This document shows positions 2,200 through 57,267 of a DNA stretch of 64,000 nucleotides, piece after piece. The stretch is taken from contig CM073328.1 of the NCBI GenBank assembly GCA_037043015.1, positions 11,071,495-11,135,494 on the forward strand, in the 5' to 3' direction. The stretch's first letter is position 1. Every line of letters begins with the position of its first letter. A program made the position numbers and the translations under genes. The notes beneath the pieces are model-generated. The model ran no database searches and was not told where the DNA came from. It saw only the letters and a list, made by a program, of their open reading frames with translations. The DNA is from Bryum argenteum. Its lineage: Eukaryota > Streptophyta > Bryopsida > Bryales > Bryaceae.

Positions 2200-2634
2200 T
2201 TAACCCTTAAGCGCCCACAATGTCGTTTTTCGACATTCTGGATGTGAGGCTCCGTCTTTGGTGCACAACCCCGCTTTCATCCCATCGATTATTCATCCGC
2301 CGTTTTTTTTGCTCAACTCCTCGGTGGGTTTACTCTACTCCCTCCTTGGATAAATAGTAAAAACCTTGATTCTCAATTTGTGAGAGTGGGCAAAAGAGAT
2401 TTTTCATGAAAGTTTTGGTGGTGTGATCTTCACCCCTTTTTTGCATGGATCTTGAAATCCATACCTCCAAATGGCATGCAACTTGGCGGTCATACTAATT
2501 GCCATGCTCCAAAGAAGATCCCACGGTTGGATTTTCCATTTTCATCTTTTATTTGTTTTTACGCAGTTTTGAAAAAATCAGCATTATTACCAATTGTTAG
2601 GAGCTTTACCCCCCCTTGGGCGTTTAGGGGTTAA
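2200..2634 (+). mobile_element. Short piggyBac-like nonautonomous element (family 1 ends)
   Basis: A 435-bp element flanked by TTAA at 2200-2203 and TTAA at 2631-2634. The left end reads CCCTTAAGCGCCC and the right end, on the other strand, reads CCCCTAAACGCCC, so the ends are inverted repeats. Just inside the left end is a perfect hairpin (AATGTCG, five T, CGACATT) that recurs in the longer family-1 copies. The interior is largely unlike those copies, so this looks like a derivative sharing only the ends. It has no coding capacity. TTAA target duplications and CCC-starting ends are the established signature of piggyBac transposons. Confidence 0.8.
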
Positions 2635-6876: not shown

Positions 6877-7853
6877 TTAACCTCGGTTTGACACATCGGT
6901 AAAGAAAATAACACATTCTCAAAAAAGTTGTCATAAATGGAAATAATGGTAAGTTATTCAGATTTGAATTGTATAATCTTGTATTATACTAATTGTGCAT
7001 CATTCGGGTCAAATTGTGAGTCGTGAGGCCTCATAGATTGCAAGATCATAACATGTTAGTACTCAAAATACATCACTAAATCTTAACATTTTCTCTTTGA
7101 AGTGAAAATGCTACCAATTTACTTATTGCAATTAAAAAACCATCATCTACAAAGATGTCTACTTACATAAGAATAACACCCTAGAGCAAAAAAAATTCCA
7201 TGAGAAAAATTTCTATGTGCAAATAATAACCTTGCAATGATGAAAACTACCAAAACATTTCCAAAGGAAAAATAGTCCAAAATTCAACCCTTTGCCCTAA
7301 AATTTATGCCTCATCTTCAATATATCTTCGATTTTGTCAAGGCTTCCACCACAAGAACTAGACTCTAAATGGAATCCATCTCAAAAAATAAAGTCAAAAT
7401 CTAATGGTGGATGAAGGACATATAGCTCCTCAAAAATAATTTTAATCACTTCCTTTCAATATAGAAATATCATTGTAAATCCAATACCAAAATTATTTGG
7501 ATCCAAAATCTCTCTACAAGAAAATTTTTTCTCGTCATCTTAAGATCATGATTATGTAAAAAAAAATTATGATAGCAAAACATATTGATATCCAATAATT
7601 GCCTCCCAATGGCAAAACATGCCCCATGTTTGAAAACTCAAAAGCAAGAGTTGCCTTTACTAAAATGCATGTTATTTATTCATACTTCATTGTATAGGTC
7701 TACAATTTTTACTACACAAACAAGACTTGATGTGGTACACAACCCAAGTGATTTCATCCAGAACATATTCTAAAAGTAGAAGTTATGGCTCTTGAAAGCT
7801 GCTGCAATCATCCAAAATGTCGATTTTTGACTTTTGGCCTAGTCAAGGGTTAA
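6877..7853 (-). mobile_element. Old family-1 piggyBac-like element, inverted orientation
   Basis: A 977-bp segment bounded by TTAA at 6877-6880 and 7850-7853. Its interior matches, in reverse orientation, the family-1 copies at 21268 and 47386. For example, the block calling for a Lys/Cys-rich pseudo-ORF around 7590-7770 has a clear counterpart at 47386-47655. Ends are eroded (CCTCGG at the left), so it is probably an ancient immobile copy. It has no transposase. Confidence 0.65.
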
Positions 7854-14870: not shown

Positions 14871-15325
14871 AAGTTGGAGTAGCATTGAACCCTAGGGAGT
14901 TCAATGATTGGAGTTTCATGCGTAGAATGGAGGGCAAACGGCCTGCTGAAGTGAGAATTGCGCAAGAATTCAAGGTTCATCGACCATGACTTGGCTTGGC
15001 TTCTGCAGATGCTTCCAAAAGAATGCAAAATTATGAGTAGTGCAGATCGCATGCATGATTCCCACCGACAAGACGACGACGAGGAGGAAATGGTGTTACC
15101 CGTGTTTGATACCCGGACTCATGTACGGGATCAGATTGAGTCCTGACTAGACAGGATTTAGTTTTGACTTATTCTGAGTCATGCATGCTTTGTGGAAGTC
15201 TAGAAGGGCCAAAAGCCGGCCATTTTCTCCTTCAGCTTGGTATAACCATGTCTTGGCCAAGCATTCTTGAGTGACTAGAGGCCTTCTCCACCGTAGTGTG
15301 ACTAGAGGCCTTCTCCTCCAAGAAG

Positions 15326-15500
15326 CAATATTTTGGATGAAAGACAAAAACTTAGAAAAGTTGTAAGTTCTTTATCTCGGGTCCAAAATCACTTGGATTG
15401 AGTTCCAAAACGAGTCTAGTTCGTGTTGTAAAAATTGTAGACTCATGCAATAAAAAATAATTTATATACATTTTAGATTCTCATTTATGGCATTTGTTTA
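15326..15500 (+). mobile_element. Fragment of family-1 piggyBac-like element
   Basis: The text from ATTTTGGATGAAAGACA through CACTTGGATTGAGTTCC and TAAAAATTGTAGACTCATG matches the left quarter of the copies at 21268 and 47386 in the same order. Neither end survives. Confidence 0.55.
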
Positions 15501-21267: not shown

Positions 21268-22236
21268 TTAACCCTTAAACGCCCACGATGTCGAAAAACG
21301 GCATTGTGGATGTACATCCAGAAACTTTGAAGAGCCATATCTTTTTCATCCGAGGTCCGTTTTGGATGAAATCACTTGGGTTAGGTTCCAAATCAAGTCT
21401 AGTTTGTGTTGTAAAATTTGCAAGCCCATATAATTAAGTATGAATTAATGGAATGCACTTTAGTGAAAACAGCTCTTGTTTTTGGGATTCCAAGCATGGG
21501 GCATGTATTACCATTGCAAGCCAATTATGTGAAATTAAAAATAGTTTTTCATGAATTTTTTTTCATGGTCATGATCTTAAGGTGATTCTTAACAACTTTG
21601 TAGCGAGAAGTTTTTTGATCCAAATGATTTTGCTATTGGATTTGCAATGATGTTTTGTCAACGGAAAAAGTGAGAAAATGGATGATATTTGAGGAGCTAT
21701 ATCTCCCTCATTCACCGTTGGATTTCAACTTAATTTATTGGGATGGCCTCCAATTAGAGTCTAGTCTAAGTGGTAGAAACCTTAACAAGATCGAAGATGC
21801 TTTGAAGATAAGGCATGAAATTGAATGCAAAGTGTCTAGTTTTGGACTATTTTTCCTTTGTAAAATGTTCGGTAGTTTTTACCATTGCATGGCTTTTATT
21901 TGAGCCAAGAATTTTTTTTGATGAATTTTGTTGGGTAAAGGACTTATTAAGATGAAGGTGAACATCTTTCTAGTTGGTGATTTTTCCATTGCAATAGGTA
22001 TATTGGTAGCATTTCCACCTCAAAGTGAAAATGATGAAATTTTGCAGTTTGTTTTTAGTATAAATATGTTATGATCTCCCGATCTATAAGGCCTCATGAC
22101 TCAAATTTTGGTCCACATGATCTTGGATAAGTCTATTACAAGTTTGTACGGTTGAGATCTTAATAGCTTTCATATATGACAATTTCTATGGAAATGTGCT
22201 TTTCTGCTAAAATAGGCTTGGGCGTTTAGGGGTTAA
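21268..22236 (+). mobile_element. Family-1 piggyBac-like nonautonomous element
   Basis: A 969-bp element flanked by TTAA at 21268-21271 and 22233-22236. Ends are CCCTTAAACGCCC (left) and, on the other strand, CCCCTAAACGCCC (right). The subterminal ATGTCGAAAAACGGCAT hairpin is present. The interior aligns along its length with 25211-26168 and 47386-48367 (AAATCACTTGGGTT, GTCTAGTTTGTGT, GGCCTCATGACTCAAAT). The 82-codon frame inside is shared with other copies only as DNA similarity, and there is no transposase. It would need transposase supplied in trans, for which the element at 30165 is the local candidate (inference). Confidence 0.85.
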
Positions 22237-25217: not shown

Positions 25218-26168
25218 ATGAACGTCCCCAATGTCGTTATTCTACCTTGAAGAAACTTCGTTATTCTACCTTGAAGAAACTTTGAAAGCCTTACCTTCTT
25301 CATCCATAATTCGTTCGGGACGAAATCACTTGGGTTGAATACTAGATCAAGTCTTATTTGTGTGGTAAAATTTGCAAACCCATATAATTAATTATAAATT
25401 GTAGACATACATTTTAGTCAAGGCAGCTTTTGTTTTTGAGTTTTCAAACATAAGGCATGTTCTGCCATTGCAACCAATTATGTGAAACCAAAAATAGTTC
25501 ATGAGGAATTATTTTACATGAACATGATCTTTAGATGATATTTAATAACTTCCTAGTTGGAAGATATTTGATCCAAGTACTTTTGTATTAGATTTGTAAT
25601 GATGTCTTCCCAATGAAAAAAGTGAAAAAACAGATGATATTTGAAGGGTTATATCTCCTACATCCATCGTTGGATTTCAACTTCACTTTCTGGGATGGAT
25701 TCCATGTAGTGTCTAGTCTTAGTAGTAGAAATTTAGACCAAATCGGTGATGTTTTGTAGAAAAGGCATACATTTGAGTGCAAAGGGTTTAGTTTTAGTTC
25801 ATTTCTCCCTTTGTAAAATTTTTGGGACTTTTCACCATTGCAGGCTAAATTCTGAACCATGATATTAATTTTGATGATTTTTTTTAGTACAAGGGTAATA
25901 TTGAAATGGATGTGTATGACTTTCTAGTTGAATCTTTTTAAACTAGAGTAGCTTTGTTGGTAGAATTTACACTCTCAAATTATAATGATAAAATTTTGTA
26001 GCTCGATCTCCCAATCAATGAGGCCTCATGACTCAAATCTTCGTCCACATAACCTAAAACAAGTCTATTAAAATTTTGTACAATTGAGATTCAAATGTCT
26101 TCCCTTTAATTTCATCTACGACACATTTTTTGAAAAAGTGTTTTTTGGTTGGAATGTTTAGGGGCTAA
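25211..26168 (+). mobile_element. Family-1 piggyBac-like element at a CTAA target
   Basis: A 958-bp copy flanked by CTAA at both 25211-25214 and 26165-26168 instead of TTAA. The left end CCCATGAACGTCC is eroded and the right end on the other strand reads CCCCTAAACATTCC. The interior aligns with the copies at 21268 and 47386. A 26-bp tandem duplication (GTTATTCTACCTTGAAGAAA) lies at 25235-25286. Confidence 0.75.
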
Positions 26169-30164: not shown

Positions 30165-30994
30165 TTAACCCCTAAAGCTCCTTGATGTTTTGAGACCTCC
30201 AAAACCAAAAACTGCGATTTTTTACCACCTTGTCCACTTTGAGATGTGGTTCAGTTTTTTGGGTTTTTTTTGGAACTCCAACCGTAAGATCTTGTAGGTA
30301 ACTACTATCAAAACATTCATGTCAAATTTCAACCGTTGGATCTTTACCATTTGTGAGATCATAACGTTCAAAGTTGACTGAAAAGTTTTTTTTGGCTTTG
30401 CCCGAAAGGCATACTCTAAATGGTGCGTAGGGGGACTTGGTGATTATTACCCCAAACATTTTGCTCATATTTTTTTCCATGTAGGTAACTAAGTTGGGCA
30501 CCTCCATGCGAAATTTTGAAGGTTGCATCACTTTTTAGAAGCTTCATCTAATTTTTTTAGTGAAACAGGGTCTATTTGACATGTACTTGTACAAATTGGG
30601 TGGAAACTCAAGAACCACATGGACATGGATTCTTCTTTCAAAAGTGAACGGTGAAATTGTGTGGTTGTACCAAAGAAAAATTTAGGAAAAAAAGAATTTC
30701 AAAAAATTCAAAATCTCAACTTCCTATGAATTTTTGAATGAAAACATTGTGAAATTGATATAAAAGGAGGAGGGGCACCAATGCAATGTTGGAGCCCTGT
30801 TTGACTACAATGGACCCATTACAAAAAGGGTGGCAGAGCCCTGCTGCCATTACTCCCATCATAAAACCAACACAAAACGGCTATATGTATTAGCTAACAA
30901 AATCAGTAGATCATGGTTCCCGAAGTGCCCCTCCCGGTTCACCTCAACTTTACTCTGACAAAAAAATAATTTGTTAGAGACAAAACTTGAAATA

Positions 30995-31525
30995 AAAAAT
31001 TGACATCGTACATGGAATCGATATTCAAAACATACTAACAAATTTAGTTTGGAATGACAAAAAAAAATTCCATTAGAGAGAAAGGGGTGAAATAAAAATT
31101 TGACATCATACATGTAATCTATATTCAAAACATACTAACAAATTTAGTTTGGAATGACAAAAAAAAAAATTCCATTAGAGAGAAAGGGGTGAAATAAAAA
31201 TTTGACATCTTACATGTAATCTATATTCAAAACATACTAACAAATTTAGTTTGGAATGACAAAAAAAAAATTCCATTAGAGAGAAAGGGGTGAAATAAAA
31301 ATTTGACATCTTACATGTAATCGATATTCAAAACATACTAACAAATTTAGTTTGGAATGACAAAAAAAAAATTCCATTAGAGAGAAAGGGGTGAAACAAA
31401 AATTTGACATCTTACATGTAATCTATATTCAAAACATACTAACAAATTTAGTTTGGAATGACAAAAAAAAAATTCCATTAGAAAGAAAGGATTCGAAAAA
31501 AAGAAAAATTGACATCTTACATGTA
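30995..31525. repeat. ~101-bp tandem repeat inside the piggyBac element
   Basis: Five to six copies at 31001, 31101, 31203, 31303, 31404 and 31510 (position of TGACATC). Each contains TACATGTAATCTATATTC, AACATACTAACAAATTTAG and TTCCATTAGAGAGAAAGG. The array lies between the left end and the transposase stop codon, and its last copy reaches it. Confidence 0.85.
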
Positions 31526-31526
31526 A

Positions 31527-34220
31527 TCAATTAGGGAGTTGGCGCCGTGTAGCAAGGGCGGTGTGCCATTGCTCAAAGCAACCTTGCTTTAGGCACATCC
31601 ACTTATTGCCACACTTGGAACAAAAGTAATGTGGTTCACGGATTTTGCACACCACACATTTCCGTCGGAATGTGCTATACCTTGGAACACAAATTACCGG
31701 TTGAGTCGGCAATGGCGCAAAGTCCTCCGGATCCGAACTTCTCATATTCCACCCCGCTAGTAAGGCTTCACACAACCCCTTCTTGAATTGTAAGTGAGTC
31801 ATAGGGGTCACCGCACGTCGGTGGGAATTGACATGTCTCACACACTCCAAGTAGTAAATGTACATGTTGCACACGGTGACATCCAATAAGAAGAAGAAGA
31901 TGCGGTGCCACCATTTGTGGCTCCGTACTTGGCAAGAATAAGATGCACGCAGTTGATCGGCGACATCAACTCCACGCATGTGAGTTGTATATTCCTTCAA
32001 AACCGGTGAAGTTTGGATCATTTCTCTAATTGCACCATTCCGGCGAGGAACACACATCACTTTTTCACATGGTGGTTGAATAGGCACCGCATGTGTGGAA
32101 AGAAGAAGCACGGGCTTCTTGTCTTTCCACATAACACAAGATAGTTTCCCATGGTCATGCATCTTCCAAATTGTTGTCCCTTGTGGCACATTTTTGAAGG
32201 CTTTGACATTTTTCAAACATGTAGGAATGCCCAAACGGTTTGCCCTTATAGTACCGGTGGCGTACATGCCACATTCTAAAAGTGTTGTAAAAAGTCCTAC
32301 ACTTGTGAAAAAATTGTCCATGGTCACTACATGCCCAACATCCCAAAGGCCTTCAAGCAATCTCATCACTACGTTGTGTGCTAGCCTTGCATCCCCAATT
32401 GTATTAGAAACTTCCACAACTTCTTCTCTAAGTGGTATTCCTCTATTTTGGCCTATGGCACCCGATTCTAAACCATTATTTGCATTAGAGGTAATGGGAT
32501 CGGTTCCAATAGGTGGAAGAGGAGGACCGGGAACTTGCTCCTTGCCACAATAAATTTCAAAATTGTACACAAACTTGGAAGTAGAACATGCCAAGCACCA
32601 TACTTTCAAGCCCCATTTTTGGGGCTTTTTGGGCATGTATTGCCGGATAGGGGAATAAGTTCCCTTGTACCGGATCATCATTTCGTCAATGGTAATATGC
32701 TTCCCAAGACACCAAGCCATTTTGCATCGCTCTCTAATGCTATTTATCAACCATCGTGTTTGTCCAATCTTATCATAGCCCGCGTCACCTCTATGAACCC
32801 CCTCTATATTTGTGAGATGCAAACATCTCCTCAAATCCCAAAATCGAGCCCGTGTGTATATGCTAGATATCACTTTGCATTGAAATAAATCATCTTTCAT
32901 CCAATAAGTTTTGTTGTTGGGTTGCACCTTCAATCCCATATAGAGAGTCAATGCCATAAATGCTTGGAGACCGGATATAGTCAAATCATACCATTGTGGC
33001 CCACCCTTAGTATGTCCATGGTCACCGGAAGGGGTATTAGCATACCTATTTGTCTCAAACACAATAGTGGACATGATTTGAGGAGTCCAAAATAAACCAA
33101 ACAACTCCATAAATGTCGGAAGTACACGATGGTTTCTTGAAGGGCCTCTTCTATTACCACAAAATGGAATTGGATGAGGATTATACAAAATACGGGGACT
33201 CTCCCAAGTCTCATCTCTATACTCCCACTTTAGTCCCGTTTGATTGTAGGTTGAACCCACATTTGGACCATCACCATCACTTTCTACATCACTTTCAAAC
33301 TCGGGAACATCCTCACTCAAGTCACCCCGTACACCACGTCTGCCTCTTCTTCTTATTACCGGTGATAAACCTCCATCATTCCCATTCATGTGAAAATCGT
33401 CCCCTTCGTTATAGAATCCAGGCCTATAATTATTTTCTTTGTTACCCTCACCCCCTCCATGCTGTGACTGAAGTTGCCTAACCTTGCATGTGGTGTGAAC
33501 ATGTGCCCTTGGTAAGTTCACTCCGCCCTGCCGTGAAAGTCGCTGGGGCCGAATTTGCTGCGGTGGCGCCTCACTGGTCAACTGCGGCAAGTTGGCTTGT
33601 AACTCGGCCTCGCTGGCCGCCATCTCAGCGTCAAAGGCAGCCGAATCGGCTGCTGTAGCCGGCATCTCCCCCGAATCTGCATCGCTGGCCGGCATCTCGG
33701 GCCCCACTACCTCGTTGGCCGGCATCTCTCCCCAATCTGCCTCGCTGGCCGGCGTTGGGGCCGAGAAGCCCAACGGCTGTCCTCCGCGGCGATAACAGGT
33801 CCTCCGGCTGCGTCGACTGCTGTCCGCCTCTCCATTTGCATGCTGCTCCGGCGCCTCGATCCATTCTTCTGTCTGCAGATCCCTGGTGCTTCGCCTCATG
33901 CGTGTTGGATTGCCGTAGCTTCGGGCCTGCAACAAAACCTCCGGTGGCCACAACAGATTTTCGAGACCTCCACCCCTTTCATTCTCGCTATCTGATTCAC
34001 TCCTGTTAATGAGATCTTCAGAGCTTGAGTAGAAAGTGCGTGTTTCTTGAGAAGTAAAGTAGTCCATGTTGAAATCAACTTCAGTGTCCGGAAGAGCAAT
34101 TGTTTCGACACCAGAACCAAGATCAGGCAGTTCATGTTCATGATATCGTGGAGGATCAGGTATGTCATCTCCACTAGATGGAGGGGTGGGGGGGGGTTGT
34201 GCTTGGCCCGGGTTCCACAT
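31527..34220 (-). CDS. piggyBac transposase (DDE_Tnp_1_7)
   Basis: 897 residues, uninterrupted. The N-terminal 330 residues are low-complexity, acidic and Ser-rich, with an imperfect ASEADxGEMPA repeat (about 158-206). They are longer than in the roughly 600-residue insect enzyme. The catalytic core (about 365-800) has the three Asp expected of piggyBac: D512 in ITIDEMMIRYKG, D635 in VVTMDNFFTS and D752 in RGVDVADQLR. The C-terminus is a Cys-rich zinc-binding domain (C844, C855, C858, C867, C870, C876, C881, H886) that binds the transposon ends in characterised piggyBac. The enzyme excises and inserts DNA at TTAA without footprint. It lies inside matching transposon ends, so it is an element gene rather than a domesticated one. 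All key residues are present, so it may be active. Confidence 0.96.
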   Translation of the reverse strand: MWNPGQAQPPPTPPSSGDDIPDPPRYHEHELPDLGSGVETIALPDTEVDFNMDYFTSQETRTFYSSSEDLINRSESDSENERGGGLENLLWPPEVLLQARSYGNPTRMRRSTRDLQTEEWIEAPEQHANGEADSSRRSRRTCYRRGGQPLGFSAPTPASEADWGEMPANEVVGPEMPASDADSGEMPATAADSAAFDAEMAASEAELQANLPQLTSEAPPQQIRPQRLSRQGGVNLPRAHVHTTCKVRQLQSQHGGGEGNKENNYRPGFYNEGDDFHMNGNDGGLSPVIRRRGRRGVRGDLSEDVPEFESDVESDGDGPNVGSTYNQTGLKWEYRDETWESPRILYNPHPIPFCGNRRGPSRNHRVLPTFMELFGLFWTPQIMSTIVFETNRYANTPSGDHGHTKGGPQWYDLTISGLQAFMALTLYMGLKVQPNNKTYWMKDDLFQCKVISSIYTRARFWDLRRCLHLTNIEGVHRGDAGYDKIGQTRWLINSIRERCKMAWCLGKHITIDEMMIRYKGTYSPIRQYMPKKPQKWGLKVWCLACSTSKFVYNFEIYCGKEQVPGPPLPPIGTDPITSNANNGLESGAIGQNRGIPLREEVVEVSNTIGDARLAHNVVMRLLEGLWDVGHVVTMDNFFTSVGLFTTLLECGMYATGTIRANRLGIPTCLKNVKAFKNVPQGTTIWKMHDHGKLSCVMWKDKKPVLLLSTHAVPIQPPCEKVMCVPRRNGAIREMIQTSPVLKEYTTHMRGVDVADQLRASYSCQVRSHKWWHRIFFFLLDVTVCNMYIYYLECVRHVNSHRRAVTPMTHLQFKKGLCEALLAGWNMRSSDPEDFAPLPTQPVICVPRYSTFRRKCVVCKIREPHYFCSKCGNKWMCLKQGCFEQWHTALATRRQLPN

Positions 34221-34757
34221 ACAATCTCGAACTTCTGCGTATGGGTATATTGTCCCACTCCATCTGCATGCAAATATTGAAGAAGTTAGTGTGTTCGTCG
34301 AAACTTGGAAGTCATCATGAATCTAGAATACTTGAAATATGCTTACAACAAGCAATTAAGCAATTATGCACTTGTACGTTTAAAAGTGCACTTATGTAAA
34401 TAACCTCCAATGTGCACTTGAAAACCCAAATATATGGCTTGGTGAATGGGTTCTTTGATAAAAAAGTTCACTAGTTGAAAACCATATAATTTTTGCACAA
34501 TAATACATATTAGAAAATAAGTAGTTTTACCCAATGTCCTCAATAATGATTTGTAATATTTGTCAATTGATATGGTAAAGTCCTACTTGCGACATAATAC
34601 ATAGTACCCGGAAAATAATAAACTTGATACATTTGTATAATACTGTAAGAAACATCCAATAAAATTCTAAGGATCAATTATTGATTTTAATCCCGTCATC
34701 TAGGCTGCCCAAAATAGCAAAAATCCACTTTGACTTTCTTGAATCTTGAGAGGTTAG

Positions 34758-35051
34758 TTCATCATCAATCCTCCAAGCTCCCGTCGAGGTTGGACTAGTT
34801 TCATAGCCAATCCCAGCAACAATGATTTCTTTTTTTTTCTTTTTTTTTTTTTTTTTTTTTCATTTTTTTTTTTTTTTCATTTTAAAAAAAAAAAATATTT
34901 CAGCATGGCAAGGGGTGTGCGGGCGCACACCCCTAGGTTTAGGGTTTTTAGACGTTGCAGCCGTCAATAATTAGGGTTTTTGCAAAATCTTCCTAATTTC
35001 TTCTATTTCTTCTCCCAAACCCTACTACCACCTCTCATATCTTATTCTCAT
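34758..35051. other. Homopolymer T/A tracts
   Basis: Long T runs (about 34828-34877) and an A run, then the first of the GC palindromes (34911). No gene. Confidence 0.6.
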
Positions 35052-35430
35052 TTCTCTCAAACCTCACAACCACTTCATCTCTCAAACCTCACAACCACTT
35101 CATCTCTCAAACCTCACAACCACTTCATCTCTCAAACCTCACAACCACTTCATCTCTCAAACCTCACAACCACTTCATCTCTCAAACCTCACAACCACTT
35201 CATCTCTCAAACCTCACAACCACTTCATCTCTCAAACCTCACAACCACTTCATCTCTCAAACCTCACAACCACTTCATCTTTCAAACCTCTCAACCACTT
35301 CATCTCTCAAACCTCACAACTACCACATACTAATCTCACCTTCTCCTTTTATTCTACACCTTAGTATGTTTGCTGGAATTAGGGTTTGAATGACGTCATC
35401 ACTCATCAGCCGCCACAACCGCCAAAAATT

Positions 35431-35468
<38 letters not shown>

Positions 35469-35598
35469 GATTTGAGCATTCAGGTCGAGCAAGGGGTGTG
35501 CGGCTGCACACCTCTCTTTTTTTTTTTTTTTTTTTCCAAAAAAATTTGGATTTGAGCGTTTAGGCCCAGCAAGAGGTGTGCGCTGCACACCTTCTTTT

Positions 35599-35635
<37 letters not shown>

Positions 35636-36260
35636 CCAAAAATTTATATTTGGATTTGAGCATTTAGGCCTAGCAAGAGGTGTGCGGCCGCACACCTCTT
35701 AATAATTTTAATATTATTATTATTATTGTTTTTTTTTTTTTTTTTTTTCCCAAAATTTTTTTTATATGGATTTGAGCGTTTAGGCCCAGCAAGGGGTGTG
35801 CGGCTGCACATCTCTTAATATATATATTTTTTTTCCAAAAAATTTAGATTTGGATTTGAGCATTTAGGCCCAGCAAGGGGTGTGCGGCCGCACACCTCTT
35901 AATAATTTTAATATTATTTTTTTTTTTTTTTTTTTTTTATTTTTTTCCCATTTTTTTTTTAATTTGGATTTGAGCGTTTAGGCCCAGCAAGGGGTGTGCG
36001 GGTGCACACCTCTTAATATATATATATTTTTTTCCAAAAAATTTAGATTTGGATTTGAGCATTTAGGCCCAGCAAGGGGTGTGCGGCCGCACACCTCTTA
36101 ATAATTTTTTTAATTTTTTATTATTATTATTTTTTTTTCTCCCAAAAAAATTTAGATTTGGACTTTAGTGTTTAGGCCCAGCAAGGAATGTGTGGCCGCA
36201 CACCTCTTCATTTTTTATTTTTGCCGGTTCTCATTTATAGGGTTTAGGCCTAGTAAGGGG
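34911..36260. repeat. Array of GC palindromes alternating with T tracts
   Basis: About ten copies of a block TTTGAGCGTTTAGGCCCAGC, AAGG, then the perfect palindrome GGTGTGCGGCCGCACACC or a variant. They occur near 34911, 35491, 35571, 35678, 35791, 35877, 35993, 36077, 36184 and 36249. Spacers of roughly 80-120 bp are dominated by long T runs and ATTATT. The 25-bp minisatellite interrupts the series. Each unit would form a stable hairpin followed by T residues. Lys-rich frames on the minus strand are translations of the T runs. Confidence 0.85.
35052..35328 (+). repeat. 25-bp minisatellite, 11 copies
   Basis: CTCAAACCTCACAACCACTT plus CATCT is repeated head to tail with almost no variation. 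The 117-codon frame across it is a product of the repeat, not a gene. Confidence 0.9.
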
Positions 36261-36811
36261 TGTGATTATGCATAGTTGTTATTGCAACTAAAGGTTTCTT
36301 TTCTCTGAATTCCACATCTACAATTACCCTTTTCAAATCCCATTCCCTCTCAAACCCCACCTTGTGCTACCACAAACTACTGCCACTATACCCCCTACGC
36401 ACTCTAAACCCTAATTTGAATTTTATCCTTTAATTTAAAACTAAAAAATTAAAAAATTGAAGGTTGTGTGCGTATACACCGCTTGAAGGTATTTAATTAC
36501 CTAACCCCCCTAAAGTTTGCTAAAGTGACCACAATGACGATTTGAATAATTTCTTCTGATTTCCTAGATTCTAGCTCTAGCTCCAAATCGAGATTGGAAT
36601 CATTAAAATAATATTGTTTGAACTTGATTCTAGCTAATTTTATGAAGCCTACTTTCTACTCCAATTTGAAAATATGATAAATATTTAAATTGAATGTGTG
36701 AGATTTTGAATTTAAAAAAAAAAAAAAAAAACAAAAAAAAAAACCCAATTCCAGGCAAATTCTTGTGGTTTAGTTGTTGAAATTAGTGCACTTAGCCAAG
36801 TGCATAAATGC

Positions 36812-37459
36812 TTAATTGTGTGTTTTACTTGTTTCCCCCTCTTGTGAGATCTCCGTGGTGGCATGTTGATAATCTGGCCAATTGCTTCTTACAATGTCCA
36901 CAATTTCGTGCTCAAAGACTTGTTGATCTACCCACCCCAACACATGTGCAGTCTGCCTGTAGAAGTGATGGCGAAAATTACGAGGTTCTGGTGACTGAGG
37001 CCACGCTCTACACTTCTTGCGTAAGCCTAGGCGACGTAAATGAGTTGGATCTAACAGAAGCAGTAGATCATGAATTTGTTGATGATGCAATTTTTTTCGC
37101 AGTGCCCAAGCGTGCAAACGAGTCCTGGGACTCCGACGATCCTCTGTAAGAACAGGCAGTACCGTAGGTGCACCAACGTTGATAGGATGCGCTGGCTCCA
37201 ACATGCGGCGACGACTTGATCGGTGCTGGTCGGGATCAACAGTCCCTGCTACCGAAGTTGCTGGTCGGCACCTCCGCCAACTGCTGGTCGGCACCTTCGC
37301 CAACTGAAGTTGCTGCCGCTGGTCTTGGGGATCGGCAGACCCTGCTGCCGAAGTTGCAGATACCGGCACCTCCGCCACCTGAAGTTGCTGGAACTGTTCC
37401 TCGGGATCGGCAAATCCTGCTGCCGCCGAAGTTACTGTAGCCGGCTCCTCCTCCGGCAA
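36812..37459 (-). CDS. Unidentified 215-codon open frame
   Basis: It starts with an imperfect Ala/Gln repeat (QVAEVP..ATSAAG..DPQDQRQQLQLAKVP, about residues 27-75) and ends in a basic region containing RRLGLRKKCRAWPQ and FEHEIVDIVRSNWPDYQ. I do not recognise it. GC is above the flanks at 37100-37600. It could be the 5' part of an unrecognised transposon gene, given the repeat-rich surroundings. Other frames on both strands are also open here because of the internal repeat, so coding status is doubtful. Confidence 0.25.
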   Translation of the reverse strand: MPEEEPATVTSAAAGFADPEEQFQQLQVAEVPVSATSAAGSADPQDQRQQLQLAKVPTSSWRRCRPATSVAGTVDPDQHRSSRRRMLEPAHPINVGAPTVLPVLTEDRRSPRTRLHAWALRKKLHHQQIHDLLLLLDPTHLRRLGLRKKCRAWPQSPEPRNFRHHFYRQTAHVLGWVDQQVFEHEIVDIVRSNWPDYQHATTEISQEGETSKTHN

Positions 37460-38089
37460 GTTGCAATCGCCTCCTCCAACAGCGATGAGCCCGGATGATG
37501 CCGGTACTGCTCGAGCTAGTATGCCCTCCTCTGCCTGCGATAAACCTGGTGCCGGGTATCTGCAGTTTCGGAAAACTCACTTTGGATCCAGCCGATCCAC
37601 AACCATCAGACCATTCCGATCTACCTCTCTTCTCGCGTTGTACTTGTATGAGAATGTCCAGTTCTGATAAACATGGAAGCTAGGGCAACGAAACGTAGTC
37701 CACTCCATTCACTGAACCCTCCATAGTGATGATTTTCAGAATTTGTACTGTTAGTATCATGACGTTTGAGTTTTGAAAGTATGAGGAAGACACTCCATGT
37801 AACGTTACATTTTTGATCGAATCCAAACTTTGAATTTCAAATGTTTTGATGTCGTATGCCGCCTCCTTGAAAACATTTACAACGGCGGCTACAAATCTTC
37901 AATAGGCGAAAGCGGTCATCGTCAAAGTCCCATATTAGCAAGCCCGGGTTGCCTTAGAGTCCCTCCTCAACCCTCTGCCCTCACCAAGTTCATGCTGCTA
38001 CCCGAGGTTGCTGCCCCCTTTATGAGCTCCATCCTCATTGGTGAGGCACCGAGCCCGTGCTACCCCATTTGGGATTCAAATAAAAAATA

Positions 38090-38265
38090 TGCATAATAAA
38101 ATTCTAAAATGTTCGTATGACCTTCAAAATTGTACCACACACACCTTGTAGTATAACACACATCCACACCAAATTGCAGCACCAAACACTCAAATTTACT
38201 CCTTCATCTAGGCTGACCAGAAACGCAAAAAGCCATTTCGGCTTTTAAGGAGCTTTAGGGGTTAA
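38090..38265 (+). mobile_element. Right end of a family-2 piggyBac element
   Basis: CATCTAGGCTGACC, AAGCCATTTCGGCTTTTAAG and GAGCTTTAGGGGTTAA (ending 38265) match the right end at 57267 and the inverted complement of the left end at 30165. It is the best-preserved family-2 right end in the window. No matching left end is convincing upstream. Confidence 0.75.
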
Positions 38266-39944: not shown

Positions 39945-41640
39945 TTAACCCCAAAATGTCCTTAACAATTGAAAACAACAATTTGAATGAAAAGTTAAAA
40001 CTTTGAAAGCCATCTCTTCTTCATCTAATGTCCGTTTTCGTTGTAATCTGTTGAGTTGAATGTCAAACTAAGTCTAGTGTGTGATAAAAAACCCAAACCC
40101 ATTGAATGAACAAATCTTTATGGCAATTTAATGGCATGTAGAGGATATGTTAGGTTCTAAAATAGGCATGTTTTACCATTACTATTGTGTGAGATCAAGA
40201 ATAATTTGTCATGATTTCTTTTATTGGACTACTATGATTCTAAGTTGAATTTCAAGGACAATTTGGTTGGAATAGTTTTGATTTAAATAACTTTGGTGTT
40301 GGATTCGCGATGATTTCATATTGAACACCCAAAAATCCAAAAAGTTTTTGTAAAGTTGAGTCTCCTTTATCTATTGTATAATCTTCACGTATTTTGTGAT
40401 GGATTCTAAATAGAGTTTAGTTTTACTGATAGGAAACTTAACTTGATCCAAGTGAAGTCATGGATTTGAATCTAATTTGAAGATAAGGCATGGATTTGAA
40501 TCTTAACTTGATCCAAGGTTTTGAATCTTAAGTTAATCCAAAACTTGATTCTAATTTTGAATCAGTTCTCATTTGTAAATATTTTGGATGATTCTCAATT
40601 TTGCAAGGTCATTGAATGAATCATCTTCTATATTTACTTCTATAATAAAATATTGTTCAACAATACTTTTTAAAAAGTACTATGTAAAGACCTTTCCCGT
40701 AAGGACGACGGGAATCATCTACTTCTATAACATAATACTGTTCGGCGATCCTTTCTACCCACCACCGTACCGACCTACCAACATACAAACCTACTAACCT
40801 ACCAACCTACCAATATACAAACCTACCAACCTACGAACTTACCAACCTACCTACCTTCTTTTATGATTTTTGGATTATGTATCAAAAATTTAAAAACATG
40901 GACATATATAAAAATAATAAACATGATATTGTTTGAACAAATGGTAGACACGCGATACTTTTTTTAAAATACCATGTAAAGAGCTTCCTCGTCGAGACAA
41001 CGAGGACCTTACTAGTACTAGTATATAATAAAATAATGTTCAACGATCCTTTCTACCTACCAAACCTTCCTACCCACCAAACCTTCCTACTCACCAAACC
41101 TTCCTACCCAACGTTCCAGCCTACCATCTTACGAACTTACCAACCAACCTATCTACCTATCTTCTTTTTATGTTTTTTGGAATAATTAAAATTATTATGG
41201 AATGGAAAACAAAAAACACATGCATATATTAAATTATTATGGAATTGTAGACATGAGATACTTTTTTTAAATACCATATAAAGTGCTTCTTCGTTGGGAC
41301 AACGAGTACCTTACTATATAAAAATAATAAACATAATATGAGGAAATGGTAGAGACGGGATAGTTCTGTAAAAGTACCATATGAAGAGCTTTCTCGTCGG
41401 GACGACAGGTACATTGCTAGTTTTAATATATAAATAAATGAGTTTCTATGATACATAGGATTTTTTGACAACTCACAATCTATAAGGTTTTATGACTCAC
41501 GTTTTGGTCCACATGACCTACAATGGGTTTATTACAAAATCTTACAGTTGATAGTTTGAATTTCATCCATAACACTTTGTTTTAAAATCTCTTATTTAGC
41601 TAATAACGCATCGGAACATTTACAGCTTAAATTTTCAAGT
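39945..41640 (+). mobile_element. Degenerate family-1 element split by Helitron-like insertions
   Basis: TTAA at 39945-39948 is followed by CCCCAAAATGTCC. The interior to about 40610 and again from about 41470 (TTTTATGACTCACG.TTTGGTCCACATGACC) follows the family-1 order. The roughly 850 bp between is foreign. The right end is not well preserved. Confidence 0.55.
40618..41421 (+). mobile_element. Cluster of short Helitron-like elements
   Basis: Three 3'-type ends: CCTCGTCGAGACAACGAGGA then CCTTACTAG (ending about 41010), TTCGTTGGGACAACGAGTAC then CTTACTA (about 41317), and TCGTCGGGACGACAGG then TACATTGCTAG (41421). A hairpin about 10 nt before CTAG and a 5' TTCTATAATAAAATA start are typical of plant Helitrons. 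Each long unit also holds a CCTACCAA-type minisatellite (40755-40860, 41052-41160). No Rep/helicase is present. Confidence 0.6.
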
Positions 41641-45404: not shown

Positions 45405-45920
45405 TCTTTAAAGCTCCTTGTGTGTTTTTGGAGCCCGAAACTGCAGTACTGCAGCCTCCATGAATACTTGGGAGTGTGAACCAAGATTTCTTACTTTTTT
45501 AAGATTTACAATTGTGAGATCCCATGATTAAGACTATTTTCATATCACAATTCCAAAACTCGACCGTTGATTGTTTATCATTTGTAAGATTATAACTACC
45601 AAAGTTTGTCTTCCAACTTTGGAGATTTCTAAAAGGTTTTAAGCTTGCTCTTATAAGTTTTGAGGGTTTTCCTTGTAGAATTGGTATAATTTTTGACTTT
45701 GGGCATTTTAGAACTTAAGTGATGACTTGGTTAAGAACATATTTCCAAGAAAAAAAAAAAAAACAAAAAAAAACAAATAAATCTTTTTTTTTAAATGTTC
45801 TTTTCCTACTTGTATTAGGTGTGAAAACTAAAATTTGTTTAAATAAACTCTAAAAGTGGAATCTGACTTTACAATTTGTTCCACACACAAATTCGTGATT
45901 ATGTAGATGTTGAAAGTGTA
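45405..45920 (+). mobile_element. Family-2 piggyBac fragment
   Basis: AAAGCTCCTTGTGTGTTTTT, AACTCGACCGTTGATTG, TGTAAGATTATAACTACC and GGAATCTGACTTTACAA follow the order of 56682-57267. The left TTAA and the right end are missing. Confidence 0.6.
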
Positions 45921-46963: not shown

Positions 46964-48490
46964 TCAATTGAGAGAATACAATCGTGAACCAAAGTAGCTA
47001 GCGCGTTGGCGAGGGTTTATGATTTCTTGTGACTTTTAGTGCTAAACCTCATTGCAACTACAAATAGTAGTGGGGGTCTCACTGATGTACAACAATTGAT
47101 GTAATAATCCATTGAGAGAGACATACAATCATGAACCAAAGGAGCTAGCGACTTGGCAAGGGTTTGTGTTTTTTATGACTTTTACAACTAAATCTCAGTG
47201 AAATTAAGAATGATAGTGGTTGTCCCACTGTTGTACAACAATCGATGTATTAATCAATTGAGAGAGATATACAATCATGAACCAAAGTAGTTATTTACTT
47301 GGTGAGGGTTTGTGTTTTTTTATTACTTTTGCTACTAAACCTGACTGCAACTAAGAATAATAGTAGGTGTACAACAATCGATGTATTAACCCCTAAACGT
47401 CCCTAGTGTCGAAAAACGACATTTTGGATGAAGGGCAGAAACTTTGAAGAGCCATAACTTCTTCATCCGGACTCCATTTTTGACGAAATCACTTGGGTTG
47501 GGTCCCAAATTAAGTCTAGTTTGTGTGGTACAAATTGCAGATCCATACAATGAAGTATGAATTAATGGCATGCATTTTAGTGACAGCAGCTTTTGGTTTT
47601 GAGATTTCAAACATTGGGCATGTTTCACCATTGCAAGCCAATTATGCAAAACCAAAAATAGTTTTTCATGAATTTTTTTTACATAAGTATGATCTTTAGA
47701 TGTATTCTAACAACTTTCTAGTTGCAAGTTTTTTGATCCAAATAACTTTGCTAGTGGATTTGCAATGATGTTTCTACAATGAAAAAAGCGAAAAAATGGA
47801 TGATTTTTGAGGAGCTAGATCTCCTTCATCCACCGTTAGATTTCGACTTTATTCTTTGGGATAGATTCCAATCATAGTCTATTTTAAGTGGTAGAAACCT
47901 TAACCTAATTGAAGATGTATTGAAGATAGGGCATGGATTTGAGTGCAAAGAGTCTAGTTTTGGACTATTTTTCCTTTGTAAATTTTGAGGCAGTTTTCAC
48001 CATTGGAAGGCTACTATTTGAGCCAAGATATTTTTTTGATGAATTTTTTTGGTACAGAAGTGTTTTTGAGATGAAGATGAACAACTTTCTAGTTGGTGAT
48101 TTTTTGATTGCAAATTTCATGTTGGTAGTATTTTCACTTCAAAGTGGAAATGATGGTATTTTGTAGCCTGTTTTGCGCACTAATACGTTACGATCTCCCA
48201 ATCTATGAGGTCCCATGAGTCAAGTTTTGGCCCACATGATCTACTACAAGTCTATTACAAGTTTGTACGGTTAAGATCGGAATAGCTTATCTTTATTTTC
48301 ATCTATATCACTTTTTTTAAAAATGAGTTTTTGGCTAAAAATACCCCAAGGACGTTTAGGGGTTAATCAATTGAGAATAGTATAATCATGAGCTAAAATA
48401 GCAAGCTACTTGGTGAAAATTTGTGCTTTCTTTTATAATTCTACTCCATGTTGACAAAAACTTGAAGGAGAAAATAATGTTGCTAAGGTA
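46964..48490. repeat. ~130-bp tandem repeat interrupted by a piggyBac-like element
   Basis: Units beginning ATCAATTGAGAGA occur at about 46962, 47110 (diverged), 47253 and 48367. Each continues with ACAATCATGAACCAAAG and a GGTTTGTG.TTTTTTATGACTTTT stretch and ends GTACAACAATCGATGTATTA. The junction between the last two units is split by the 982-bp element at 47386-48367. Confidence 0.8.
47386..48367 (+). mobile_element. Family-1 piggyBac-like element, best-preserved copy
   Basis: A 982-bp copy with TTAA at 47386-47389 and 48364-48367. Left end CCCCTAAACGTCCC, right end on the other strand CCCCTAAACGTCC, hairpin GTGTCGAAAAACGACAT. The flanks ATCGATGTA and TCAATTGAG join across a single TTAA in the neighbouring tandem unit (47241-47260), showing the pre-insertion site. 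There is no transposase, so it is nonautonomous. Confidence 0.93.
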
Positions 48491-48984: not shown

Positions 48985-49740
48985 TCGATGTTTTTTGACA
49001 GGATCACATGAGTTGAGTTCCAAATGAAATCTAGCTTGTTTTGTAGATATTGTAGACCTAAGCAATGAAGAGTGAACAAATGGCATGTATTTTATCAAAG
49101 GAAACATTTGTTTTTAGTATGTCTCATGTAATTTAGGCATGTTTCACCATTGCAAGCCTCTTATGTGATATCAGTTTTAAAGTTTTTTTTATTTTTTATT
49201 TTTATTTATTTATTTATTTATTTACATATTTATGTTTAAAAAATAAACTCCGACAAATTTCTAGCTTGAAGATTTAATTCAAAATATTTTTTGTTATTGG
49301 ATTTGTGATGATATCTTAGTAATGAATAAAGTGAAATAATGGATTTGTTTTTAGGAGCTATTTCTCCTTCATCCATAGTTGGATTCAAAAAATAGTTTGC
49401 TCTTAGTGGTAGAAACCTTGGTCAAAAATGTTAGGGTATATCAAGCATCATTCAGGCATGGATGCGAAGGGTCTAGATTTTTAGAGATTGAGTTGAACAA
49501 CTTTCGAGTTGGAGATAGTTTCATTGTAGTAGCTATTTTAATAGAATTCTCACTCCAAAGTGAAAATGATGAAATCTTGTGGTCTCTTTTGAGAACGAAT
49601 ACGTTATAATTTTGCAATCTACAAGGCTTCATGACTAAAATTGGTCCACGCAACCAAAAAATAAGATTGTTACAAGTTTGTATGTCTCAGATGTGAAAAA
49701 GTTACCTTCATTTACATTTATGATGCACTTTTTGAAAATA
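48985..49740 (+). mobile_element. Degenerate family-1 piggyBac-like copy
   Basis: The sequence from GGATCACATGAGTTGAGTTC through CATGTTTCACCATTGCAAGC and GTTGGATTTGTGATGATAT to CAAGGCTTCATGACTAAAAT keeps the family-1 order. A TTTATTTATTT microsatellite (about 49190-49225) lies inside. Ends are not recognisable. Confidence 0.55.
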
Positions 49741-51225
49741 TATCTGATACCTAGAGTCGTTACGAGGGTGAAAAATGTAATTATTCATTTTCTTGTATAA
49801 GATAATTGTTAGGCGCATGTAGGCACAACATTGTAGGGAGAAAATTTGATGGATCAAACATAGAAAAATAATGTAATAATAGCAAGGGTAGGTAATAATC
49901 ATGATGTAATAAGCAATATAATTAGAAGTCAACAATTTTATGAAAGTTGTAGTCAAATATGAACATTGCCATGATTTTATCCAACATGGAGTCTTCATAA
50001 TTTTATGATATCCTCGTACCAAAATCGGCATATCAAATTTTGTTAAGACCTCCAAGTTAGGAGTTCTTTAGATCTAGAATAGTAGTAGAAGGAAAAACTT
50101 TAAAAGAAATGCAATATAACAACTGCAATGTTCTGAAAAATCATTGTTAGATTCAGCCAATACAATGTAGGGCTCAAATGAAATATGAATAATCTCTATG
50201 AACATGTCCCTAAGTTTGAGGTCCTATGAGCCTATTTATTGTTTTAATTTGAGCCGACGATCTAAACATTACCCCCTCTTTCTCACTGCATACGCCTTGG
50301 AATTTGCAAACCAAGTGTAAAAAGGGACCACATGCCCTATCTTCAACATTAAAATTATTTGCTTACGAAACACCTACCCATCCAATCTCCATGGCACCAG
50401 ATTGTGCACTACAAACCACAAGCTAAATCATTTATCTCAAAAGCAGTAATGACCAGACAAGAACTAACATAACGTTCACCATGAGAGGAGTTAGTAGTCC
50501 CACCAATGGTTTTATACATCCAAAAACAAGTCAAATGAACAATCTATTCTGACCACTTTGGAATTGTTATTCTTCTTCTTCTCCCAAGCATGGTTACCAA
50601 GGTACAAAGAACATGCCGTACTTGTTCTGAGAATTTTTCACATACACACAAATCTCTAGTACTTATGATGATGGGTATTAACAAGTACAAAACATAGTTT
50701 GCAAGTAGCTAGAAGTACGTAGTTACAATTTGAAAATACATGAGTATTCTTGCAACCTTGTTCCGAAGCTCAAAATTCGATTCTAACAAAATAAATTGAG
50801 CATGCTCTTAGCACACTCTAGTGAAAAAACAAACAATTTTCAGACATTTAATAAATTTGGGGGGGGGGGTCCATTATCTACAAGTGTACAAGGGCAACCA
50901 ATGGACTAAAAATTGACTTTAAAAATGAAGTTGAAAGGTGATGTGGCATTGAGGAAGCCCTCTAATGGGAATAGACCAAGTGCACTAATGGGATTCCTCA
51001 CTCATTTTGGCGTCAAAGGCAACTCCAAAACCGTGTGAACGGTGTGAGCAATCACTCCACGAAATCCGGCGCTAGATTCCCTAATCCCGCGCGGGTATCA
51101 GTCCCACCGGATATCAATCCCCGGAGAGTGGAATTTTCCCCGCACTTCCCTCGCTCACCTACACCGAACACCGCTCCCTAGCAACGGAGCTTCATCACCA
51201 CCATCGCGCGCGCGACCGCTCGGGG
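49741..51225. other. Intergenic region and presumed RLK promoter
   Basis: No gene to about 51000. GC rises from about 51020. A G10 run lies near 50862 and a dispersed-motif copy near 50470-50575. CG repeats near 51205-51213. Confidence 0.5.
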
Positions 51226-55933: not shown

Positions 55934-56305
55934 AAACCCTTGTAGGCCTGACCAAACCCTTGTAGGCCTGGTGTGAATAAACCCTTGTAGGCCTGGTGTG
56001 AATAAACCCTTGTAGGCCTGGTGTGAATATACCCTTGTAGGCCTGGTGTGAATAAACCCTTGTAGGCCTGGTGTGAATAAACCCTTGTAGGCCTGGTGTG
56101 AATAAACCCTTGTAGGCGTGGTGTGAATAAACCCTTGTAGGCCTGGTGTGAATAAACCCTTGTAGGCCTGGTGTGAATAAACCCTTGTAGGCCTGGTGTG
56201 AATAAACCCTTGTAGGCCTGGTGTGAATAAACCCTTGTAGGCCTGGTGTGAATAAACCCTTGTAGGCCTGGTGTGAATAAACCCTTGTAGGCCTGGTGTG
56301 AATAA
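55934..56305. repeat. 24-bp minisatellite, 15 copies
   Basis: The unit is CCCTTGTAGGCCTGGTGTGA plus ATAA, nearly invariant (one GGCGTG variant and one ATAT variant). Because 24 is divisible by three, all frames stay open and give spurious repetitive peptides on the minus strand. The array runs directly into TGTTCGACCTACCCTTGATG, a dispersed motif. Confidence 0.95.
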
Positions 56306-56681: not shown

Positions 56682-57267
56682 TTAACCCCTAAATCTTCTT
56701 GGTGTGTTTTGGGAGCTTGAAACCTAAAAACTGCGATTCTCTACCTCTAAGCACTCGTGGGGGTGTGAACCAATTTCTTTTCCTGTTTTAAAACTTCCCA
56801 CCCTAAGATCTTGTACCCAAGAACATGCTTTATTACTGTTCAAAAATTTGACCGTTGGATGTTTACCATTTGAGAGATCATAACATCCAAAGTTTGTCTC
56901 CCAAGTTTTTTTGGGCATTGCGAAGATTGGTTTTGAAATTTTTGGAGGTTGCCCTTGTAAAATTGGTAAACTTTTTGACTTGAGTCACTTTGAAATTTCA
57001 GTAGTGATTTAGGAATGAACATGTTTCAAAAAACAAATTTTTAAAAAGTTACTTATTTCAGCTGCCCCATCTCGGCTCGCAACCCAAGGATCGTCCTAGA
57101 AGACTCAAAAATTGGAATTTGACTTTGCAAATTTTACCACATACACATTGCAGTATAAGGAGGACCCAATAAAAATCTTAGGCAAAAATATTACTTCTAA
57201 GCCCTTCATCTAGGCTGCCCGAAATTGCAAAAACCCATTTCGGGCTTCAAGGAGAGTTAAGGGTTAA
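56682..57267 (+). mobile_element. Family-2 piggyBac deletion derivative (586 bp)
   Basis: TTAA at 56682-56685 and 57264-57267. The left end CCCCTAAATCTTCTTGG and first 250 bp match the transposase element's left end (AAAAACTGCGATT, CCGTTGGATGTTTACCATTT, GAGATCATAACATCC). The right 100 bp match its right end (CCTTCATCTAGGCTGCCC). Subterminal hairpin GCCCGAAAT/ATTTCGGGC. The whole gene is missing, as in an internally deleted, trans-mobilised derivative. Confidence 0.85.

Follow-up and report, generated by a model that had tools for sequence, protein, structure and literature searches.

The 64,000-nucleotide stretch of DNA analysed here (the window) raises the question of whether it holds an intact piggyBac transposon in a plant genome, where such an element ends and what it encodes. 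A first-pass annotation had placed an apparently intact element at 30165–34757, with a piggyBac frame, a left end at TTAA and an eroded right end; the frame, left end and TTAA stand, whereas the right boundary at 34757 and the intactness do not. Our results indicate that 30165–38265 is very probably one two-gene DNA transposon of the piggyBac superfamily that carries a nested foreign repeat and resides in a nuclear plant genome (Table 1). The host is a land plant and probably a moss, the latter judged from one LEAFY residue and the chromosome number. The element spans 8101 bp, the 2478-bp repeat included.

Table 1. Positions of the large element, its genes and the smaller elements within the window
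Feature	Position	Strand	Basis or remark
TTAA target-site copy, left end	30165..30168	+	end scan of sequence
Left terminal inverted repeat CCCCTAAAGCTCCTT	30169..30183	+	end match; short TIR, begins CCC/CCY
Tandem array (5.7 copies of a 101-bp unit) directly adjoining transposase stop codon	30956..31528		also in copy L039
ORF2, 897-codon open frame, piggyBac transposase	31527..34220	-	PF13843; D512, D635, D752, D755; C-terminal Cys-rich pattern
C9 run; conserved ORF2 start (MEWDNIP) and long frame out of phase across it	34188..34196	-	sequence compared with relatives
ATG of conserved ORF2 start (ATGGAGTGG, MEWDNIPIRRSSRL)	34261..34263	-	sequence and relatives
Possible splice acceptor CAG, directly before ORF2 ATG	34264-34266	-	sequence
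Inserted repeat, 2478 bp, in predicted intron	34347..36824		4-bp flanking duplication (TTAC on +); multicopy in genome
Decayed piggyBac right-end fragment within inserted repeat (the "eroded right end")	34641..34757	-	similarity to ends at 38265 and 57267
Predicted donor GT of ORF1	36828-36827	-	by analogy with L039
ORF1, start MEGSVN at 37724	36829..37724	-	TAG at 37682-37680; frameshift relative to L039
Conserved ORF1 domain (RLHAWALRKKL...FRHHFYRQTAHVLGWVDQ...)	36839..37120	-	alignment of relatives
Right terminal inverted repeat	38247..38261	-	15/15 identical to left TIR
TTAA target-site copy, right end	38262..38265	+	adjoins right TIR
435-bp small element, TTAACCCTTAAGCGCCCA / TTAACCCCTAAACGCCCA ends	2200..2634	+	end match
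Relative of 981-bp element, 75%	6907..7853	-	similarity
Fragment akin to 981-bp element, 71%	15323..15476	+	similarity
969-bp element	21268..22236	+	81% to 47386 copy; TTAA both ends
Partial relative of 981-bp element	25275..26145	+	similarity
Interrupted relative of 981-bp element	39945..41631	+	matching parts 39945-40499, 41472-41630
Partial copy, small family of 56682 element	45409..45893	+	similarity
981-bp non-autonomous piggyBac-type element, ends TTAACCCCTAAACGTCC	47386..48366	+	TTAA both ends
Partial relative of 981-bp element	48992..49741	+	similarity
586-bp non-autonomous element, same family as large element	56682..57267	+	TTAA both ends

Recognisable ends next to TTAA, as the annotation had described, do occur, the left one (TTAACCCCTAAAGCTCCTT) at 30165 and the right one at 38265. 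The latter emerged from a scan of all TTAA pairs near the gene, in which 38247–38265 matches the left terminal inverted repeat (TIR) at 15/15 positions and then continues into TTAA. Allowing up to three mismatches, the 19-bp end has seven matches within the window against 0.03 expected by chance, and TTAA with the exact TIR is found at 30 sites genome-wide (backward control, 0).

The open frame of 897 codons holds up as annotated, running free of stops on the minus strand, and the proposed profile check returned PF13843 (DDE_Tnp_1_7) with E=3.1e-69 and 234 bits (cut-off 22.4), the only Pfam family to match this transposase. Matches in the PDB are to piggyBac (6x67) and piggyBat (9c0f), with residue-level agreement around the catalytic aspartates. 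D512, D635 and D752 are kept as reported, and this triad, along with D755, sits in motifs equivalent to those of piggyBac. Among 40 frames chosen beforehand for having the second and third motifs, several of them overlapping loci from a single copy, the first catalytic motif is present in 38, while L001 and L005 misfit the search pattern. The annotated C-terminal Cys-rich domain is likewise present, as the pattern CVVCKIREPHYFCSKCGNKWMCLKQGCFEQWH (C-x2-C-x8-C-x2-C-x5-C-x4-C-F-x3-H, residues 855–886); at pattern level this corresponds to the Cys-rich zinc-binding domain of the piggyBac superfamily and may bind zinc and DNA. It fits 20 of the 40 frames, the misses being mostly burst copies (members of a sister subfamily described below) with a broken C-terminal part.

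Upstream of the transposase lies a second gene, ORF1, whose domain retains 24 invariant columns across ten sequences. ORF1 is under purifying selection, with dN/dS values of 0.11–0.47 in the 22 of 55 pairs that gave a finite ratio. Of 51 transposase loci, at least 44 have an ORF1 match upstream; the other seven have none among the matches listed. A single protein-coding gene is a usual, though not strictly defining, trait of piggyBac elements, and the conserved ORF1 departs from it. Searches with ORF1 gave no significant match in Pfam (Nqo15 at E=0.035, below its cut-off, was taken as chance) and nothing better than E=0.14 in the PDB. Its function is a guess, since ORF1 lacks a recognised homologue; it is probably a conserved companion encoded by the element, acting as a DNA-binding or as an assembly or regulatory factor. 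The resemblance in ATGGAGTGG between the starts of ORF1 and ORF2 was dismissed as coincidence.

The description of an intact copy fails on both genes. ORF1 is interrupted by a TAG and is frameshifted relative to L039. In the assembly, the C9 tract leaves the conserved start of the transposase out of phase with the long frame; an assembly error is possible there because the run is a homopolymer. The window copy is decayed and is probably unable to supply both proteins. Nor is the uninterrupted frame by itself proof of recent activity, as had been suggested; recent movement is supported instead by other copies. The window element may nevertheless have moved fairly recently, because the closest copy found, L039, is 98–99% identical to it.

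The nature and limits of the element could be read differently. Were it a 4.6-kb unit ending at 34757, with unrelated neighbouring sequence from 34758 to 38265, the right-end-like character of 34641–34757 would be accounted for, this segment being 68% similar to the 38265 end across 116 bp and 78% similar, across 85 bp, to the right end of the small element that stops at 57267. However, the supposed eroded end at 34757 lies inside the inserted repeat, and 34347–36824 is recognised as an insert because all six relatives compared (L039–L044) join window positions 34314–34347 to 36824–36827, leaving no more than about 24 bases in the gap, and then run on to an end equivalent to that at 38265. The repeat is itself multicopy with the same two edges elsewhere, for example at C3:14833558–14836075 (96%). 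Along with the perfect TIR and TTAA at 38265, these observations make the shorter unit highly improbable; L039 already refutes it, having the 38265-type end and lacking the insert. A second, truncated piggyBac element at 34758–38265 is ruled out by the same six relatives, with 34347–36824 being the insert and 36825–38265 part of the same element. The long open frame and conserved catalytic residues would also suit a domesticated host gene of the PGBD or PiggyMac type, but such a gene is hard to reconcile with matching TIRs and TTAA flanks, many dispersed copies, and a window copy that carries an inserted repeat and whose partner gene is broken, and we consider domestication very improbable. 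Contamination from an animal or fungus might be suspected, as piggyBac is best documented in animals and is also known from fungi and protists (excerpt of PMC12732532). Against this, contig C8 is chromosome-scale (18.5 Mb), DUF3537, LRR receptor kinase and GH2 mannosidase genes flank the element, related elements sit between those plant-type genes, and matching ends or transposases occur on contigs C1–C11. Contamination is thus scarcely credible, and the annotated placement of piggyBac in a plant genome is borne out by the plant-type genes around it and the chromosome-scale contig.

A more serious question is whether ORF1 and ORF2 of the two-gene transposon are instead exons that together encode one longer transposase. 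They share one strand and a constant order, with a 77–94-bp intron-like stretch between them in eight members, and in L039 the ORF1 frame, past the predicted splice, continues in the transposase frame. In 8/14 members examined, though, a GT donor in phase 1 (donors were located with a simple pattern only) is paired with an AG just before ATGGAGTGG, and ORF1 would therefore enter exon 2 in a frame other than that of the MEWDxIPxRRSxRL start. L053 and L054, which have no intron at that place, show the same offset between ORF1 and ORF2. The ORF1 frame reaches an equivalent stop 28–29 codons into exon 2 in six of nine members read, while two stop earlier and L039 runs on; the transposase frame of L039 is itself broken near the C tract. 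On this evidence a single transposase is unlikely, yet it is the strongest of the competing readings.

For two proteins, the following scheme may be proposed. Transcription would begin on the minus strand close to the right end, at about 38.26 kb, and pass through ORF1, the short intron and ORF2. After splicing, ORF1 and ORF2 would overlap in different frames of the message, so that expression of ORF2 would depend on alternative splicing, reinitiation or frameshifting. The ORF2 transposase would bind both ends, with its core on the TIR and its Cys-rich domain on subterminal DNA, cleave by means of its DDD site and integrate at TTAA. Small elements bearing ends of this kind, several of which lie in the window, are probably mobilised in trans. 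Whether these elements represent a two-component piggyBac lineage, in which the transposase depends on an obligate partner with an undescribed domain encoded in an overlapping frame, and which has become a dominant DNA transposon of a moss genome and is still transposing, is in our judgement evenly balanced.

Recent movement in this genome is well supported by other copies. In the 259-Mb host genome all 116 PF13843 candidates scored (of 775 first-look candidates) exceeded the cut-off; 14 control genomes gave no transposase match. The genome-wide searches suggested in the first-pass annotation, for matching ends and for copies with two good ends, yielded 14,192 exact 12-bp TTAACCCCTAAA sites (172 in the backward control) and, for a sister subfamily, 61 pairs of ends spaced 5698–5716 bp apart. 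All 61 have TTAA on both sides, TTAA being part of the search pattern; L046, an additional copy, is flanked by TTAT at either end. Seven of these burst copies compared in full differ by only 1–8 substitutions over about 5.7 kb. When the ORF2 of eight burst copies was read, five had a stop before the Cys-rich end and three an altered Cys-rich end. One-base indels are commoner than substitutions in these frames, which indicates assembly error, although decay could also explain the excess.

Insertion at TTAA is also consistent with a related element-free site. When its flanks are joined, the copy at C8:2392967 matches C8:2415131 at 81%, with nearby indels of 8 and 5 bases, and a single tetranucleotide, TTGA, stands there where the insertion has TTAA twice. 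This genome-wide search with one joined flank also found a second partial paralogue (75%, ATGA at the site). Comparison of 23 joined flanks, that one included, with the collected transposon loci only gave no clear element-free site. Viral contigs yielded no relatives.

About 14,000 exact 12-bp ends, 61 full-length pairs and a second conserved gene in a land-plant genome stand against a scant plant record. In an excerpt of PMC12732532, piggyBac is described as widespread in animals, fungi and protists and occasional in plants (e.g. red algae), with limited plant studies, and the portion seen of a paper on the moss Physcomitrium patens names the Mariner elements PpTc1 and PpTc2 and not piggyBac (PMC7466625). 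Literature searches of partial coverage, over titles and the starts of abstracts, named no piggyBac described as intact or active in mosses or any other land plants; one for two-gene piggyBac elements, also partial, returned mostly virus papers and named none. Both results are weak evidence of absence. If active, the element would give plants a natural piggyBac whose need for two proteins could be tested, could find use in plant gene transfer or marker removal, and would raise the question of how the piggyBac superfamily reached and spread in the plant lineage.

The element shares with Trichoplusia ni piggyBac (6x67/6x68) and Myotis lucifugus piggyBat (9c0f) the transposase family, the three Asp motifs (TIDE, xxDNxFxS, GVDxxDQ), the C-terminal Cys-rich domain, TTAA duplication and a short TIR starting with CCC, as at the T. 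ni piggyBac ends. An accessory ORF beside the transposase is known from PIF/Harbinger, which has a transposase family of its own and targets 3 bp, and from other two-ORF DNA transposons; membership of PIF/Harbinger is rejected here, given that PF13843 is the sole Pfam family matched and the target is TTAA. ORF1 has no significant Pfam similarity. According to excerpts of the respective papers, T. ni piggyBac is 2472 bp long and encodes one 594-aa protein (PMC10140906) with the catalytic triad D268, D346 and D447 (PMC7351741). In contrast, nine full backbones from the present genome measure 5.5–6.4 kb, open ORF2 frames are about 820–940 codons with a long N-terminal region, and ORF1 lies upstream. 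Bee piggyBac elements resemble ours in their short TIRs and TTAA duplications, and measure 2.23–3.52 kb with transposases of about 580 aa (excerpt of PMC10140906). PiggyBac is likewise annotated in another land plant, the fern Ceratopteris, whose repeat table lists 1230 copies totalling 122,417 bp (PMC6890710). Each annotated copy there averages about 100 bp, with no intact element in the passage seen, whereas the present genome has elements of full length and a burst that is very recent. The system described is thus a member of a known superfamily in an unusual host, a two-gene variant with very recent transposition in its genome.

By its TTAA, its type of terminal inverted repeat, its transposase and its Cys-rich end, the window element is, as judged from sequence, a member of piggyBac. 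The transposase frame (ORF2) matches PF13843 at E=3.1e-69, and two PDB sequences match it, piggyBac (6x67) and piggyBat (9c0f), with an alignment that spans all three catalytic motifs. The first-pass annotation had described an 897-codon open frame with D512, D635, D752 and a Cys-rich C-terminus; all of these are found in the frame, together with D755.

Positions of features in the window and, where a contig (C2, C3, C8) is named, elsewhere in the host assembly
Feature	Position	Observation
Left end	30165	TTAA + CCCCTAAAGCTCCTT
TTAA pair of the element	30165/38265	15/15 bases match
Transposase frame	31527–34220, minus strand	897 codons, no stops
Tandem repeats	33641–33753	30-bp units (multiple of three), in N-terminal part of transposase frame
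Nine-C run	34188–34196	
Conserved transposase start	34263	
Inserted repeat	34347–36824	Flanked by 4-bp duplication
ORF1 start	37724	
ORF1 stop codon	37682–37680	TAG; Gln in L039
Other TTAA-flanked repeat	16620–17358	Perfect 15-bp inverted repeat (AATTTGTGATTGGAG), unlike piggyBac ends
Minisatellite	35053–35320	25-bp unit, 98% matches, 10.7 copies
Minisatellite, different unit	55954–56306	25-bp unit, 98% matches, 14.1 copies
L039, closest copy found	C2:22656930–22663154	
Copy of inserted repeat	C3:14833558–14836075	Full-length, 96%
Adjoining burst copies	C2:1912899–1912942	Single TTAA common to both
Element-free stretch	C8:2415131–2415277	81% match to joined flanks

The TTAA pair assigned to the element was the one fully matching pair around the transposase gene, and a single further pair of this kind was present in the whole window at spacings of 100–12,000 bases. 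L039, on a different chromosome, is 98–99% identical to the window over the left part and resumes at 36825–38268 with no sequence between, and in the relatives L040–L044 the sequence jumps from window 34314–34347 to 36824–36827, separated by no more than about 24 bases. Because all six relatives compared are without it, the intervening stretch is an insertion; it is a dispersed repeat and resembles a composite non-autonomous element, with TTAC as the 4-bp duplication. Many copies of this repeat have one or both of its edges in common, and some shorter copies stop near its position 291. The supposed eroded right end at 34757 falls within the insertion missing from L039–L044 and is rejected as an end of the element, being a piggyBac end fragment carried by the repeat.

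The description of the window copy as intact does not hold either. ORF1 carries a TAG and its frame shifts further on, and the conserved transposase start and the 897-codon frame lie in different phases on either side of the nine-C run, a region where the L039 frame is likewise broken. Since homopolymers are error-prone, these breaks may partly be assembly error. The flanking genes (DUF3537, GH2 mannosidase, TLDc, Rsm22 and LRR receptor kinase domains) are, by our reading of their domains, plant-type. LEAFY is present in the genome; its DNA-binding part reads INKPKMRDYVHCYALH, with an aspartate at that position which, from published LEAFY work, we take to be the moss type. A set of eleven large contigs would suit a pleurocarpous moss, and we regard the host, with moderate confidence, as a moss.

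By motif scan, 35 of 56 sequences (55 loci plus the window element, with overlapping loci counted separately) carry a conserved coding region, ORF1, upstream of the transposase. Most of the others cover too little of the locus or come from other clades; in L041 the motif was missed, yet an ORF1 search match lies inside (C5:2472253). The consensus is RLRSWAVRKHLRxxQIxxLLxLLDxxHLRSLxxRKKSRAWPxxPQxNNFRHHFYRQAAHILGWVxQxxFEEEFVDIVxSTxPD, with 24 invariant columns among ten aligned members. Pairwise dN/dS was finite in 22 of 55 comparisons (11 members), always 0.11–0.47, values that are rough where dS > 1; 32 of the remaining pairs have saturated synonymous sites and the window–L039 pair has zero synonymous differences. 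ORF1 had no significant match in Pfam (best E=0.035, under cut-off) and none in PDB (best E=0.14). In the genome, 150/150 scored candidates match (330 first-look candidates), and 44 of 51 clustered transposase loci, drawn from 57 of 113 transposase match rows, have a listed match on the same strand and within 4.5–6.5 kb upstream (chance expectation about 0.0015 per locus); the other seven have none among the matches listed, some perhaps a listing effect. In L001, L002, L003, L005, L007 and L008 the motif was not found in the 1.5 kb ahead of the domain match, perhaps too little sequence to tell. These loci represent other piggyBac transposase clades in this genome, whose N-terminal regions differ greatly.

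At the ORF1–ORF2 junction, eight of 14 members have a predicted GT donor in phase 1, called by a simple pattern, 142–148 nt past the HHFYRQ motif, and AG immediately before the transposase start ATGGAGTGG, giving predicted introns of 77–94 nt. L016 has the spacing with no donor fitting the pattern, and the junction could not be evaluated in L006, L041 and the window. In L053 and L054, which represent a subfamily, no intron-like stretch lies between the predicted splice points, as if an RNA intermediate had been involved. With the donor in phase 1, spliced ORF1 would enter the second exon in a frame other than that of the conserved MEWDxIPxRRSxRL start. Traced across the junction in nine members (the eight predicted to be spliced and intronless L053), this frame ends at an equivalent stop 28–29 codons in, in six, stops earlier in L004 and L044, and in L039 continues in the transposase frame. 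Fusion of ORF1 and ORF2 into one protein is possible; we read them, from the predicted frames, as two overlapping genes.

In the assembly (258.8 Mb, 25 contigs, the eleven named in the results being 7–44 Mb), PF13843 gave 775 first-look candidates, with 116/116 scored exceeding the cut-off; the transposase had no match in any of 14 control genomes. The window itself holds eleven elements or fragments of piggyBac type, of which five have a TTAA at each end, and the 12-mer TTAACCCCTAAA occurs 14,192 times in the genome versus 172 for its backward control. Exact 24-mers locate 62 left and 61 right ends of a sister subfamily, the burst, with none in backward controls; these make 61 pairs 5698–5716 bp apart and one unpaired left end, and most of these copies are known from their ends only. 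All 61 pairs have TTAA on both sides because the search patterns include it. Seven fully read copies show 1–8 substitutions in pairwise comparison over about 5.7 kb (0.02–0.14%) and 6–15 gap columns; in an eighth copy, L046, TTAT flanks both ends. In the eight burst copies read for ORF2, the excess of one-base indels over substitutions suggests polishing error. L045–L052 differ from one another mostly by one-base indels and by changes affecting two adjacent bases; this odd pattern may reflect errors in assembling near-identical repeats. ORF2 is open from MEW beyond the third catalytic motif in 8/8 copies read; in three of them the frame extends to the Cys-rich end, which is altered in each. 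In the more distant L042 and L055 both frames are open, with catalytic motifs and Cys pattern. The element-free stretch matching the joined flanks of one copy has TTGA where the insertion has two TTAA, along with small indels (8 and 5 bases) close by. At a second match, partial and 75% identical, the tetranucleotide is ATGA. Sets of 13 and 10 joined flanks, compared only with collected loci, gave no clear element-free site. The largest contig, C1 (44.1 Mb), carries one of the 61 burst pairs, where its length would predict 10.4 (binomial P=1.5e-4), and 2 among the 150 ORF1 matches listed, a shortage possibly reflecting a sex chromosome or closed chromatin.

In the literature consulted, piggyBac in plants appeared only as one line of a repeat table for the fern Ceratopteris (PMC6890710) and in general statements (PMC8086355, PMC10140906, PMC12732532). 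Published bee piggyBac elements measure 2.2–3.5 kb and encode a transposase of about 580 aa; the T. ni element is 2472 bp long, with a protein of 594 aa (PMC10140906). Compared with these, the elements described here are longer (5.5–6.4 kb in nine backbones measured), have a longer transposase frame (about 820–940 codons where open) and add a second gene.
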